Source: a virus. Taken from it: a stretch of 29,605 bases of DNA. Below are positions 12,087 through 16,489 of the stretch, in pieces. Location of the stretch: IMG/VR virus record IMGVR_UViG_3300025131_000282, positions 1 to 29,605 of that record. The stretch is one strand, 5' to 3'. Under the pieces are notes generated by a model that was not told the DNA's origin, did no database searches, and saw nothing but the letters and a program-made list of their open reading frames with translations. Within the stretch, counting starts at the first letter, position 1; each line of letters begins with the position of its first letter. Made by a program: the position numbers and the translations under genes.

Positions 12087-12722
12087 TTATTTAATACTTT
12101 CTGTTGGTATATTAAGAGCTTCTATAACTGCAAATTCAAATACTTTACTCTCATTATCATATCCAATCACTCCATTAAACTTATTTTTTAATTCATTCCA
12201 TCTATCTAATATATCTTGACTTACTGTTATAGTTATCTTTTTATCAAAATCTTCTCCCTTCCCATCTCCTTCAAAATCTTCCCAATTAAAATCTGATAGA
12301 GTTCTAAAGTTTTCTAGCTCTTGTTCTGTGTAAGGTAATGTTAAATCTAAATCATCAAACTCATTACTAATCTCTTTTATTCTTTCAGCTAATTCTATTG
12401 TATCTGTTTCAAATTTAGTTTCGTTGGTCTCTATAGCTATTCTAATAGCCTGTGATTGATTTATTTTACCTAAGTTATAAGTATATACCTTCTCAAATTT
12501 TAACTCTTTTAGAACACTTAATCTGTGATTTCCATTTACCACCTCATAATATCCTGTATCTAATTCTCTTATAAGAATATTTTCTATCTGTCCATTTCTT
12601 TTGATATTCTCTTTTAGTTTCTCTTGCTTTTTATCATCTTCTGTTTTGTAATTCCAATCAGCTTTAACTAATTTGTCTATTGGTACTTCTATGAATCCCA
12701 ATTTATATTTTTTCTTTTCCAT
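12087..12722 (-). CDS. ParB/sulfiredoxin-fold protein next to dpdA
   Basis: 211 residues. The N-terminal domain matches the ParB/Srx fold: GFIEVPIDKLVKADWNY at 9-25, LKENIKRNGQIENILIREL at 36-54, and the nucleotide-binding-type signature VVNGNHRLSVLKEL at 61-74. A following helical part has INQSQAIRIAIETNET and TIELAERIKEISNEFDDLDL. The C-terminal section (about 157-211) has KITITVSQDILDRWNELKNK and an EFAVIEALNI helix. ParB-like proteins next to terminases are common in phages. The start lies inside the 3-prime end of dpdA (34-base overlap), implying co-translation. One option is a role in base exchange like the bacterial DpdB; others are DNA binding or nuclease activity. Function is not settled by sequence. 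Confidence 0.75.
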   Translation of the reverse strand: MEKKKYKLGFIEVPIDKLVKADWNYKTEDDKKQEKLKENIKRNGQIENILIRELDTGYYEVVNGNHRLSVLKELKFEKVYTYNLGKINQSQAIRIAIETNETKFETDTIELAERIKEISNEFDDLDLTLPYTEQELENFRTLSDFNWEDFEGDGKGEDFDKKITITVSQDILDRWNELKNKFNGVIGYDNESKVFEFAVIEALNIPTESIK

Positions 12723-13552
12723 AATTTTGTATAATATATTTGTGCTTGTTGATAAGCGTTAATACCTTGTGATAATCTATATTCTAATTGTTCTCTTTTA
12801 TTCTCATGATGTAATAAATCTATATTAAAACTAGCTCCTATTTTGTTTTTATCTTTTGCTGTTAAGTTTGTTACTTTTCTACCAGTAAATTTTGGTACAA
12901 ACCCATACATAATACCAGCCTTCCAACTTGTGCTATCAACTGAATAGAAAGGATATTTAGACATAACACTATCTTTAGTCATTGCAAAACCATGCACTTT
13001 AATACCTCTATCATAACATTGTTTAATTAGTTTTAGATAAGGTAATCTACTCCTATTGTTTCTATCTCCTTCCAAAGCAACATATTTACTTTCGCTATCT
13101 TCTAACATATCTATATAATCTTTCCAACTCATACAGTTAGGATGATATACAGTAACACATTTTGAGTATAGTTTTTCTTTCTTTAATTCTTCTCTCCATT
13201 TATTTACCAACTCTTGCCCTACTATTTCTCCTATATCTAACTCAGCAAAGTAATCATAGTTATTATAATTCCTTTTTAACCATACTAAATACTTATCAAA
13301 ATACTCTTGTGGAGTTTCTTTCATCTTCTCTTTCTTTTTATGAACTCCTGCTGAAGATATATTTTCATCCTCACTAAAAAATGTATGAGCTCCACTATCT
13401 ACAAATACTAAATCATGATAGATTTTTGCATTTCTTATCTTTTTATCCTCTTTATCAGTTCTCATATAATAGTAAGAATAGAAAGCGTTTAAGATTTCTG
13501 GTCTATGTCTGTAGTTCCAACTTTGTTCTACTCCTGCTAAAAATATTTTCAT
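12689..13552 (-). CDS. dpdA: DpdA-type DNA guanine transglycosylase
   Basis: 287 residues. The protein resembles the TGT-like DpdA proteins of phages, which exchange guanine in DNA for a 7-deazaguanine base. Visible motifs are LVFVDSGAHTFF at 48-59 (counterpart of the TGT DSGGFQ block, with D52 as candidate catalytic acid), YFAELDIGEIVG at 101-112, VALEGDRNNRSRLPY at 158-172, IKVHGFAMTKDS at 184-195, and FYSVDSTSWKAG at 202-213. It is much shorter than tRNA-guanine transglycosylases and I see no four-ligand zinc site, as in other phage DpdA proteins I know. It sits in one overlapping run with CDG-making genes, which strongly supports the call. The subfamily cannot be assigned without a tree. 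Confidence 0.82.
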   Translation of the reverse strand: MKIFLAGVEQSWNYRHRPEILNAFYSYYYMRTDKEDKKIRNAKIYHDLVFVDSGAHTFFSEDENISSAGVHKKKEKMKETPQEYFDKYLVWLKRNYNNYDYFAELDIGEIVGQELVNKWREELKKEKLYSKCVTVYHPNCMSWKDYIDMLEDSESKYVALEGDRNNRSRLPYLKLIKQCYDRGIKVHGFAMTKDSVMSKYPFYSVDSTSWKAGIMYGFVPKFTGRKVTNLTAKDKNKIGASFNIDLLHHENKREQLEYRLSQGINAYQQAQIYYTKLWKRKNINWDS

Positions 13553-14538
13553 TCAAACCATTTTTCTATTTCAAAAGTATAATTACTTTCTGTTTGTTTT
13601 AACTCTCCTTTTAGTGCCTCTTGAACTAATTTGACACATTCATCAAAATTATTATATAAATAATCTTTAGAATAAAATTCAGGATAAACTACTCTATTTG
13701 GTAATACAGGAATACATCCTAATTTAACTGCCTCATTTACTCCTATTCCAAAATTCTCTTGCAACGCAAAACTTACTACCACTTTACTTTTTCCTAATAA
13801 TTTATAGTAATCAGTTTTAGGTAATTTTAAAGAATGAGTATTTACAAATTTAGGTTCTTTAAATGGTTTCTCTAGGTAGCATAACCAGTCATTTGTAATA
13901 GTTTCTTTTAATTTTTCAAATAACCAAGGTTGTTTTTCATCTACATTTCTACCATTAAAGACAACTATGTTTTCTTTTTCATCAGATTTGTATTGCATAA
14001 ATTCTTTGTCGTCTAATGTTTGTCCTGTAACAATTAACTTATCTTCATTTATGATTCTTTTCTTCAATACATCTTTTTTGATAAATTCAGAAAAAACAAA
14101 TACTTTATCTGCTATATCAAAAATAACATCCTCAAAATTCTTTGCCCATCTTTCCATATCTCTAACAAAATCTGTATCAGTAAAACTACCAGCATGTAAA
14201 ACACCTCTAACCTTAACATCTTTCTTACAAAAGTAATTTAGATAGGCAATACTTTCTAATCCAGGAAACCAAATATCAGAAGTAAAAATTATATCTCCAT
14301 CTTCTATTTCTCCTGTATGATACATTTCTGCAACCTTAGCAATTTGTTTACTCTTAAATTCAATTGTAGTAGGTGCATCTAAAAAACTTCCTTCCTTGAT
14401 TTGTCTTGCAGGAATATCAGGATATATTCTTACATATTCTTTTCCACTTTTATCTAGATAATCACAAATGACTTTATCCATATAAACTGTGTATCTCATT
14501 TCAATATGTTCCAGCGGTAGGTATATTATTTTTGCCAT
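13549..14538 (-). CDS. GT-B (GT4-like) glycosyltransferase inside the base-modification cassette
   Basis: 329 residues. The N-terminal half (Rossmann-like) has DIIFTSDIWFPGLESIAYL at 82-100, VRGVLHAGSFTDTDFV at 110-125 and KVFVFSEFIKKDVL at 145-158. The C-terminal half has ENIVVFNGRNVDEKQPWLF at 189-207, then the donor-site block SFALQENFGIGVNEAVKLG at 256-274. E261 and E269 form the EX7E motif of GT4-type retaining enzymes, followed by CIPVLPNRVVYPEFY. It overlaps dpdA by four bases and the T-fold gene by 13 bases. The likely acceptor is therefore a modified base in DNA or its precursor (inference). A cell-surface target is the alternative. No signal peptide or membrane segment is seen. Confidence 0.8.
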   Translation of the reverse strand: MAKIIYLPLEHIEMRYTVYMDKVICDYLDKSGKEYVRIYPDIPARQIKEGSFLDAPTTIEFKSKQIAKVAEMYHTGEIEDGDIIFTSDIWFPGLESIAYLNYFCKKDVKVRGVLHAGSFTDTDFVRDMERWAKNFEDVIFDIADKVFVFSEFIKKDVLKKRIINEDKLIVTGQTLDDKEFMQYKSDEKENIVVFNGRNVDEKQPWLFEKLKETITNDWLCYLEKPFKEPKFVNTHSLKLPKTDYYKLLGKSKVVVSFALQENFGIGVNEAVKLGCIPVLPNRVVYPEFYSKDYLYNNFDECVKLVQEALKGELKQTESNYTFEIEKWFE

Positions 14539-14852
14539 ATTTCTGCTCCATTTTCGTTATCCTCTAATACTTTACAATAATTTAATTCAAATGTTAATAG
14601 TAAATCTTTTGCGATACTTTCGCAACTTAATCCACCAAACTCTTTATCATATCTGCAATCAAGGTATTCTGTTATTTTATTCTTAAACATTATTATTTCA
14701 ATATCTCTATCATCATGCTTTACTTCTTTCTTACAAGTAATATAAAAGTTATGCCTATGAATGTTTTTTAGGTATTCAACTTCTTTTATCCTACAATCTT
14801 TCCAAAAATGAGTACCAGCATATTGTATGTTTACTATTATATTTGTTCTCAC
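14526..14852 (-). CDS. QueD-like tunnel-fold protein of the modification cassette
   Basis: 108 residues, starting at GTG whose last bases form the TGA of folE (GTGA overlap). It is distantly similar to QueD/PTPS: AGTHFW around H15, HRHNFYI with H32 and H34 (matching the HGHNY zinc ligands of QueD), SCESIAKDLL at 76-85 (matching PTAENMAKYL), and a C-terminal VLEDNENGAEI around E97. All three zinc-binding histidines therefore seem kept. The Cys that QueD carries four residues before its HxH (C24) is not in the same place; the nearest is C20, twelve residues before H32. The protein is shorter than QueD, and a separate true QueD is present. It may act on CDG or another pterin/deazaguanine intermediate. 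A CDG decarboxylase role is one hypothesis. Confidence 0.65.
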   Translation of the reverse strand: MRTNIIVNIQYAGTHFWKDCRIKEVEYLKNIHRHNFYITCKKEVKHDDRDIEIIMFKNKITEYLDCRYDKEFGGLSCESIAKDLLLTFELNYCKVLEDNENGAEIWQK

Positions 14853-15376
14853 TTTATTAGATTTAAAAATTCATTCCTCGCATTCAAATCATTCTTAAAC
14901 GCTCCAATCATTTTAGAGGTAGTAGTCCAAGTATTGTGTTTTTTAACTCCTCTCATTTCCATACATAGATGTTTTGCTTTTAATACTACAGCAACTCCTT
15001 GAGGCTCTAATTGTTTTTGTATCTCATTTGCTACTTGTGTTGTTATCCTCTCTTGATTTTGTAATCTCCTACTAAACCATTCTACAGTTCTTGCTAATTT
15101 ACTCAACCCAACTATCTTTTTGTTTGGAATATATCCTACTGTTGCATATCCAAAGAAAGGTGCGATATGATGTTCGCATAAAGAATAAAAAGGTATGTTA
15201 GTTTGTATAATCATTTCATCATATCCTTCACTATCAAATGTAGTAAAGTTAAATTCAGGAGGACTTGTAAATTCCTTTAAGAATTTCAAATACCTTTTAG
15301 GTGTATCTTTTAATCCTTCTCTACTAGCATCATTATCTATTTGCTCTATTATTTTTTTAATATTATCTTCTATCAT
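14849..15376 (-). CDS. folE: GTP cyclohydrolase I (FolE)
   Basis: 175 residues. It converts GTP to 7,8-dihydroneopterin triphosphate, the first step of 7-deazaguanine synthesis. Motifs are SREGLKDTPKRYLKFL at 18-33, FYSLCEHHIAPFFGYATVGY at 63-82 with zinc ligands C67 and H70 and catalytic-type H69, IVGLSKLARTVEWFSRRLQN at 88-107 followed by QERIT, and KAKHLCMEMRGV at 133-144 with the third zinc ligand C138. It lacks part of the N-terminal helical region of the roughly 220-residue E. coli enzyme but keeps the full catalytic core. It overlaps queE by four bases (ATGA). In this context it supplies precursor for base modification rather than folate. Confidence 0.95.
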   Translation of the reverse strand: MIEDNIKKIIEQIDNDASREGLKDTPKRYLKFLKEFTSPPEFNFTTFDSEGYDEMIIQTNIPFYSLCEHHIAPFFGYATVGYIPNKKIVGLSKLARTVEWFSRRLQNQERITTQVANEIQKQLEPQGVAVVLKAKHLCMEMRGVKKHNTWTTTSKMIGAFKNDLNARNEFLNLIK

Positions 15377-16077
15377 ACTCCTGTTGTTTTATTCCATATT
15401 TCTATTTGTAATCTACTTGAATATAAAATTTGATTATCTTTACATATATCTGATACCATTTTGCTGTTTTGTTTTAACATTATTTCATCATCAGCTCCAG
15501 GCATTAAAACTATTTTTTCTTTTTTTAATTCATATTTGTTTATTAGTTCTTGTACCTCTTCCCAATCTTGTTGTTTTGTAATAACAAATTTGAATATAGA
15601 AAATTCGTGACTATTTATTTGTTTCAGAACATCTCTTTTTATTCTTTTATTATAAGGTTCTCCAGAGTTAGATAGTTTAGGACTACAATTAATAAGAGTA
15701 ACTAAATTAAAAAAACTATCATTTAATAATTTTGTTCCGTTTGTTTCCAATTCTACAAATGGCATCATTCCGTGTTTATTATAATACTCCCTTAAAAATA
15801 CTTCTAACTCCTTTTGTTGTAATACAGGTTCTCCTCCTGTTAAAACTAGATGAACTCCTTTTTTAAATAATTCTAAATAGTTATCTTCAAACAATTTCAT
15901 AGCCTCATCATGAGTATAATTATCTCCTTTCTTCCATACCTCTATTGTATCACATATCCAATCTCCTTTACATAAAAGATTACAAGCGGTTAGCCTTAAA
16001 AATACAGAGGGTACTCCCATTGTTATTCCTTCTCCTTGAATACTGTAAAAGTGTTCGCTAATTGATAATCCTTTCAT
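15373..16077 (-). CDS. queE: 7-carboxy-7-deazaguanine synthase (QueE), radical SAM
   Basis: 234 residues from the ATG at 16077, chosen because it starts just before the conserved EHFYSIQGEG block (8-17); a GTG start 12 codons earlier is possible but lies deep in queD. QueE converts 6-carboxytetrahydropterin to CDG using an iron-sulfur cluster and SAM. Visible motifs are the cysteines in ACNLLCKGDWICDT (C32, C36, C42), TGGEPVLQ at 80-87, ELETNGT at 109-115 and SPKLS at 132-136. The third Cys is spaced C-X5-C instead of the usual C-X2-C, a small insertion in the cluster loop. Some QueE proteins are known to have expanded loops, so activity is likely retained. It overlaps queD by 20 bases. Confidence 0.92.
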   Translation of the reverse strand: MKGLSISEHFYSIQGEGITMGVPSVFLRLTACNLLCKGDWICDTIEVWKKGDNYTHDEAMKLFEDNYLELFKKGVHLVLTGGEPVLQQKELEVFLREYYNKHGMMPFVELETNGTKLLNDSFFNLVTLINCSPKLSNSGEPYNKRIKRDVLKQINSHEFSIFKFVITKQQDWEEVQELINKYELKKEKIVLMPGADDEIMLKQNSKMVSDICKDNQILYSSRLQIEIWNKTTGV

Positions 16078-16489
16078 AAGTCGCTTTACATTTTCTAGTT
16101 TCTTCAATATCACATTTTATTAATATACATCCAGTTTCTGCTAATTCATCTATCGCAACTACCTCACAAAGATACTTTGCCATATTTTCTGCGGTAGGAT
16201 TGAAACTTGTTACTATTATATCATTAGGTACTAATTCTTTTAAGCTAGATACTAAATTATCGTGTTCCCATATTAAAAATTTATGGTCCCAATTATCTTC
16301 TAACCAATCACATAATTTAGATTTAATTACACTAAAATCCATTACTCTCCCTAAATGGTCTAATTCAGATGCTAGTATAGTAAAATGAACTCTATAATTA
16401 TGACCGTGTAAGTGAGCGCATTTGTTTTCGTGTCCTGTTACTTTGTGTCCTGCACTGAAGTCATGGTATCTAGTTGCTGTTATTTTCAT
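16058..16489 (-). CDS. queD: 6-carboxy-5,6,7,8-tetrahydropterin synthase (QueD)
   Basis: 143 residues. It converts dihydroneopterin triphosphate to 6-carboxytetrahydropterin. The full set of family motifs is present: FSAGHKV with H15, CAHLHGHNYRV with catalytic C24 and zinc ligands H28 and H30, VMDFSVIKSKL around D51, LEDNWDHKFL around H69, FNPTAENMAKYL at 97-108 and CDIEETRKCKATY around E130. It is the first gene of the modification cassette, after a 48-base gap that may hold a promoter or a tiny leader frame. The ATG at 16489 directly precedes the conserved N-terminal strand. Confidence 0.95.
   Translation of the reverse strand: MKITATRYHDFSAGHKVTGHENKCAHLHGHNYRVHFTILASELDHLGRVMDFSVIKSKLCDWLEDNWDHKFLIWEHDNLVSSLKELVPNDIIVTSFNPTAENMAKYLCEVVAIDELAETGCILIKCDIEETRKCKATYERIIN

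Follow-up and report, generated by a model that had tools for sequence, protein, structure and literature searches.

The window, that is, the whole 29,605-nt stretch of viral DNA analysed here, comes from a tailed phage, of which it forms a fragment containing portal, tape measure, and terminase genes. Its terminase is nearest to those of Flavobacterium phage 11b (53%) and Cellulophaga phage phi10:1 (51%), which suggests by sequence kinship a host among the Bacteroidota. On the minus strand, an operon runs from high to low coordinates in the order queD, queE, folE, S108 (a small QueD-like gene), the glycosyltransferase (GT) gene, dpdA, a ParB-like gene, and the small and large subunits of the terminase (Table 1). 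An earlier reading of this DNA, made from the sequence only, had reported the GT open reading frame without a strand; the frame is present on the minus strand, and the plus strand over the same interval is full of stops. Consecutive frames overlap by 4 nt (folE/S108), 13 nt (S108/GT), and 4 nt (GT/dpdA), and the last two values, taken from the frame coordinates, are exactly those claimed. The true start of QueE probably lies downstream of its annotated GTG. The ParB-like gene (c1 family) lies repeatedly next to dpdA of the phrog_887 type and to the gene for the small terminase subunit, as seen in 19 S108 loci, and could serve either DNA modification or packaging.

Table 1. Genes of the deazaguanine-glycosyltransferase operon in the window.
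Feature	Coordinates	Strand	Remarks
ParB-like protein, overlaps dpdA by 34 nt	12087..12722	-	PF02195 2.4e-6; phrog_723 2.6e-23
DpdA-type DNA-guanine transglycosylase, 287 aa	12689..13552	-	phrog_887 'queuine tRNA-ribosyltransferase' 2.9e-29
GT4-type GT-B glycosyltransferase, 329 aa, ATG start	13549..14538	-	predicted sugar transfer to 7-deazaguanine base
S108, QueD-like T-fold protein, 108 aa, phrog_17812	14526..14852	-	GTG start overlaps folE stop
FolE, GTP cyclohydrolase I	14849..15376	-	PF01227 2.9e-67
QueE-like radical SAM enzyme (7-carboxy-7-deazaguanine synthase)	15373..16113	-	phrog_2076 9e-54
QueD, 6-carboxytetrahydropterin synthase	16058..16489	-	PF01242 1.8e-25; phrog_2389 3.8e-46

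The AlphaFold model of GT, built from an alignment of 32 homologues, has a pLDDT of 86 and a pTM of 0.84. Compared with solved structures, it gives 123 matches at E<=1e-3, the best being the GT-B/GT4 enzymes BshA (5e-10), MshA, glycogen synthase, and PimA. The GT4-like identity proposed earlier is therefore borne out by fold and by motif, since the EX7E pair E261 and E269 is invariant in the 32 homologues, and at least 99% of 101 retain it. The sequence itself stays under the curated Pfam cut-offs (PF00534, 20.8 vs 26.4 bits; PF13439, 15 vs 28.5 bits), and a profile search of PDB sequences with GT returned no match. GT represents a family too divergent to reach the sequence threshold, and 'GT4-type' is meant here as fold plus motif. 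The T4 glucosyltransferases are absent from its best 50 fold matches and from the PDB sequence matches, and Pfam models of the QTMAN type do not match it. Among the 101 homologues, H115 is present in 97, and R197 and K202, which we take to be equivalent to the residues that commonly contact the donor phosphate in GT4 enzymes, are kept in nearly all. No membrane segment had been noted in the protein, in agreement with a highest 19-residue Kyte-Doolittle mean of 1.04. GT is slightly acidic (47 K+R vs 56 D+E) and has no obvious DNA-binding domain. From its modelled fold and residue conservation, GT very likely functions as a soluble, active sugar transferase.

IMG/VR was scanned twice with GT, which yielded 86 loci, and a profile HMM for each neighbouring gene was run on every locus. 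Of the 86, 83 have S108 and 81 a DpdA-type protein; wherever either is missing, the contig ends at the place expected for the gene. Forty-five loci have full flanks, defined as at least 5.5 kb upstream and at least 3 kb downstream of GT; all of them contain S108, DpdA, and FolE (45/45 each), with QueE in 42/45 and QueD in 25/45, in counts that take in many close relatives and come from pattern-based motif scans favouring nearer homologues. More distant homologues, of 26-32% identity, were covered by a tblastn search of INPHARED. Sampling in the reverse direction, a GT homologue is present in 48 of 79 S108 loci. Outside viruses, the 84,980 bacterial and archaeal genomes searched contain one match, located on a Flavobacterium MAG contig where the gene set recurs; by these sequence searches, the GT family is almost confined to viruses. 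The same set is found in isolated phages, namely Acidovorax phage ACP17, Sinorhizobium phage Phosso, Pseudomonas phages PA5oct and Paride with their relatives, Synechococcus phage BUCT-ZZ01, and Xanthomonas phage X1. In Phosso, the DpdA is located apart from the cluster and belongs to the PA5oct-type lineage (F4).

The association of GT with deazaguanine genes, recurring in 45/45 full-flank loci, is far beyond chance. The survey of homologues for steady linkage with dpdA, proposed in the sequence-only reading, speaks strongly for that reading in both the viral contigs and the isolated phages. The opposite pattern named there, homologues away from dpdA and beside surface-glycan genes, did not emerge, and DpdA, FolE, and the QueD paralogue were found wherever the contig was long enough. 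This bears on the idea that the targets of GT are host surface glycans or a phage protein, for superinfection exclusion or virion glycosylation, and that its operon position is incidental. Glycosyltransferase clusters ascribed to the outer polysaccharide are described in jumbo phages and cyanophages (PMC7824862), and the most distant GT homologue, of about 23% identity, lies among aminosugar genes in the PhiXhv phages. However, no surface-glycan gene context was seen around the close homologues in IMG/VR loci or isolated phages, and GT is without a membrane segment, which together with the full-flank linkage makes a surface role very improbable. The aminosugar neighbours of the distant homologue (loci L066 and L079, and Xanthomonas phage PhiXhv-12) are glucosamine-phosphate synthase-like and deacetylase genes. 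PhiXhv-12 also has an F4-type DpdA homologue far from its GT, near which no S108 was found.

S108 is a constant and obligate neighbour of GT. Its 'QueD-like' label is confirmed by a model with a pLDDT of 95 whose best PDB match is E. coli QueD (7e-5). The zinc histidines H15, H32, and H34 and the C-terminal E97 are invariant, and the catalytic Cys that QueD has four residues before the HxH pair is absent, Leu28 being invariant there in 30 sequences. Because Leu stands in place of the catalytic Cys, S108 probably combines the QueD-like fold with a different reaction. A decarboxylase of 7-carboxy-7-deazaguanine (CDG) has been suggested for phages with 7-deazaguanine (dDG), and S108 could be such an enzyme; if it is, the sugar would be C-linked or joined elsewhere. 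S108 also occurs without GT, and the remaining S108 loci tend to carry other genes. Those without GT (L067, L068, L117, L131, L142, L145, L147, and others) contain a conserved 263-aa family with TGT-like motifs and a dCTP-deaminase-like protein, in many cases together with a P-loop kinase; Cellulophaga phage phiST is such a relative, with a P-loop kinase. The c0 family of these loci resembles TGT by motif, but its profile comparison was too weak for an assignment to DpdA. Other decorations of the same base are perhaps made from the GT-less loci.

The DpdA partners of GT fall into three lineages: phrog_887, to which the window protein belongs, phrog_10773, and F4. The F4 profile matches phrog_10773 at 95-97%, and phrog_10773 includes a Vibrio phage nt-1 protein that adjoins FolE, a QueD-type gene, and QueC. 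Phage nt-1 encodes DpdA2, according to the relevant part of PMC6884629. In the alignment, the D-S-G, D, H, and D residues are invariant between the window DpdA and the other lineages. The ACP17 counterpart matches TIGR00449 at 4.6e-7, below the cut-off of that model, and against PDB sequences the F4 profile has TGT entries on top at an E of only about 0.3. The DpdA lineage changes at least nine times on the GT tree, which is a quick tree with long branches where L183 and some deep rows may be non-orthologous. From these changes it follows either that GT and S108 were retained while the transglycosylase was swapped, or that the pair moved between systems. Two PHROG families listed as 'unknown function' can be annotated from this comparison, phrog_17812 as the QueD-like T-fold partner and phrog_10773 as a DpdA lineage.

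The base can be narrowed down from the genes that are missing. QueC above the cut-off is found in none of the five complete GT-containing genomes, with positive controls matched and the window itself being a 29.6-kb fragment; QueF, which supplies the amine-bearing preQ1, is likewise absent from the five, with controls matched. A QueF match in Bakedbeans was weak and overlaps FolE, and candidate QueF-like genes of 130-165 aa that cluster with FolE proved to be phosphoribosyltransferases. With neither QueC nor QueF in the complete relatives, the phage's own genes lead as far as CDG, followed by the S108 step. The integral partnership of S108 and the absence of QueC, neither of which was part of the sequence-only reading, make a base derived from CDG likely, rather than preQ0. 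CDG has no hydroxyl, and O-glycosylation therefore needs the carboxylate, an additional step, or a base made by the host; the alternative is a C-glycosidic bond. Should unaltered CDG be the inserted base, its carboxylate would be the sole exocyclic handle at C7. Queuosine side-chain genes were not seen in the phages.

Several further genes at these loci point to purine metabolism or to additional chemistry. A phosphoribosyltransferase (PF00156) adjoins FolE or is fused to its N-terminus (L002-L004 and L018, folE ~272-291 aa), and small phosphoribosyltransferase genes lie near FolE in many other loci, e.g., L047:9000-9488. Such an enzyme may recycle the guanine released by DpdA to GMP and on to GTP for FolE. 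A gene of the IMP dehydrogenase/GMP reductase family directly downstream of GT in L034-L036 (e.g., L036:7960-9012) is another sign of purine supply in the cluster. Divergent GT clusters (L110, L114, L127, L129, L141, L148, L152, L172; L112, L146, L157, L169) encode, beside GT, an extra radical SAM enzyme (PF04055) or an alcohol dehydrogenase together with a GFO/IDH/MocA oxidoreductase, and these enzymes possibly carry out further steps on the sugar or the base.

A pyrimidine acceptor has also to be weighed, in which GT, like the T4 enzymes, would glycosylate 5-hydroxymethylpyrimidine residues of DNA and the proximity of dpdA would reflect a general DNA-modification island. The cases known from phages are glycosylated hmC and hmU; GT4-like enzymes are found in conflict systems, and the ACP17 GT weakly matches PF20706. 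The thymidylate-synthase/hydroxymethylase family (PF00303) occurs in PA5oct and Phosso, possibly as an ordinary thymidylate synthase, and is absent from the complete genomes of ACP17, BUCT-ZZ01, and X1. As three of the five complete relatives are without the family, a hydroxymethylpyrimidine acceptor is unlikely, and by gene content such a route is unlikely to operate in at least these three phages. Together with the strict coupling of GT to 7-deazaguanine genes, this leaves the pyrimidine explanation with hardly any probability. A Tet/JBP search gave no match in any genome, controls included, and is uninformative.

Genes for sugar supply accompany GT in many loci. A UDP-glucose 4-epimerase gene (galE) lies near GT in 22 loci, mostly adjoining it and in many with a 4-nt overlap; the protein scores 290.9 bits against the equivalog cut-off of 262.3 for TIGR01179 and matches a UDP-glucose 4-epimerase in the PDB at 1.8e-56. 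In 13 other loci, a phosphomannose isomerase domain (PF01050, 1.1e-38) is encoded next to or near GT, and in the GT tree these loci are spread over at least two branches. The presence of one or the other gene in 35 loci links GT with the metabolism of nucleotide-sugars; it also suggests that different phages use different sugars. The recruitment of sugar-nucleotide genes beside GT in several lineages and the conservation of active-site residues over 101 sequences also make it improbable that GT is a remnant without activity or with a structural role, or that it glycosylates another small molecule of the pathway, for instance to trap by-products, even though its activity is a prediction and several acceptor groups can be envisaged.

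The best explanation, to which we assign a probability of roughly 0.7, is that a QueC-independent 7-deazaguanine made by the phage is swapped into DNA by DpdA and then glycosylated by GT. As family membership suggests, FolE, QueD, and QueE would convert GTP to CDG, which S108 would process in place of QueC. DpdA, again judging by its family, would exchange the S108 product for guanine in DNA. GT would subsequently move a sugar from a nucleotide-sugar onto the inserted base, the donor being supplied by the host in the window phage, while in the relatives phage galE or phosphomannose isomerase would boost the donor supply. By analogy, the bulky sugar-7-deazaguanine may block restriction and other DNA-targeting defences. 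Sugar transfer to a base in DNA is held to be probable from linkage, fold, and supply genes taken together. The glycosylated 7-deazaguanine of the sequence-only reading thus gains support from the linkage and from the sugar-nucleotide genes in 35 loci, while the DNA acceptor, the atom, and the sugar are what we infer.

The order of the last two steps could be reversed, with GT glycosylating the free base or nucleotide and DpdA then inserting the sugar-bearing base. The same linkage data fit this order, and GT is coupled to S108 and QueD as tightly as to DpdA. However, the alpha- and beta-glucosyltransferases of T4 and the enzymes glycosylating queuosine in tRNA act on the polymer, and a sugar-bearing base would need to fit the DpdA pocket; glycosylation before insertion is unlikely. 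A broader reading, which we put forward tentatively, treats the pathway as a QueC-independent platform: S108 would act on CDG so that the product either offers a reactive group or has C7 free, and this product, once in DNA, would be decorated by one or another of several exchangeable enzymes. In this tentative scheme, the decorators would be, in many lineages, glycosyltransferases with galactose- or mannose-type supply, in some the extra radical-SAM or dehydrogenase enzymes, and the P-loop kinases of GT-less, phiST-like phages. The whole would be a purine counterpart of hydroxymethyluracil and hydroxymethylcytosine hypermodification, possibly with a C-glycosidic DNA base.

Both halves of the favoured reading, insertion by DpdA followed by glycosylation, have known parallels. 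T4 glucosylates hmC by its alpha- and beta-glucosyltransferases, and RB69 carries arabinosyl-hmC. The present system resembles T4-type glycosylation in that the predicted role of a phage-encoded GT is the glycosylation of a modified base in DNA. Unlike T4, the base would be a purine analogue introduced by base exchange, whereas the hydroxymethylpyrimidine of T4 is made at the nucleotide level; moreover, no T4 enzyme ranks among the 50 best structural matches of GT, and three of the five complete genomes have no hydroxymethylase. DpdA systems of phages yield dG+, dPreQ0, dPreQ1, and dADG, and the pathway enzymes of phage 9g have been tested (Hutinet 2019, PMC6884629). In the sections of that paper on DpdA systems, no described base bears a sugar. 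As in the DpdA phages described there, FolE, QueD, and QueE are combined with a DpdA-type transglycosylase in one operon; unlike them, the complete relatives have no QueC, QueF, or Gat-QueC, and S108 and GT are constant members.

In animal tRNA, QTMAN and QTGAL produce mannosyl- and galactosyl-queuosine by placing the sugar on the cyclopentene hydroxyl of queuosine, as given in the relevant part of PMC12518689. The likeness lies in mannose or galactose on a 7-deazaguanine already in nucleic acid, and the galE and phosphomannose isomerase of the phages point to similar sugars; the difference is that the phages are without visible genes for the queuosine side chain. The carboxymethylcytosine hypermodification of phage S-B43 is methyltransferase-based, with amide bonds on cytosine and no sugar (PMC12783734). 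It offers a possible analogy, if the base here is CDG, in using a base carboxyl as the handle for further decoration. No 7-deazaguanine bearing a sugar in DNA turned up in a full-text literature search, and the passages of a comparative paper that note the deazaguanine system of PA5oct mention no coupled glycosyltransferase. The union of the two halves with a QueC-independent base would provisionally be new.

To our knowledge, the known decorations of 7-deazaguanine are all small. If the proposed pathway is correct, the DNA of these phages would contain a sugar-bearing 7-deazaguanine, and the sugar could shield the DNA as strongly as the glucosyl-hmC of T4. The pathway would provide, in GT, a new enzyme with which guanine analogues in DNA could be glycosylated. 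It would also explain the two widespread families phrog_17812 and phrog_10773, and would give a direct prediction for isolated phages, including those of the PA5oct/Paride group, which infect P. aeruginosa.
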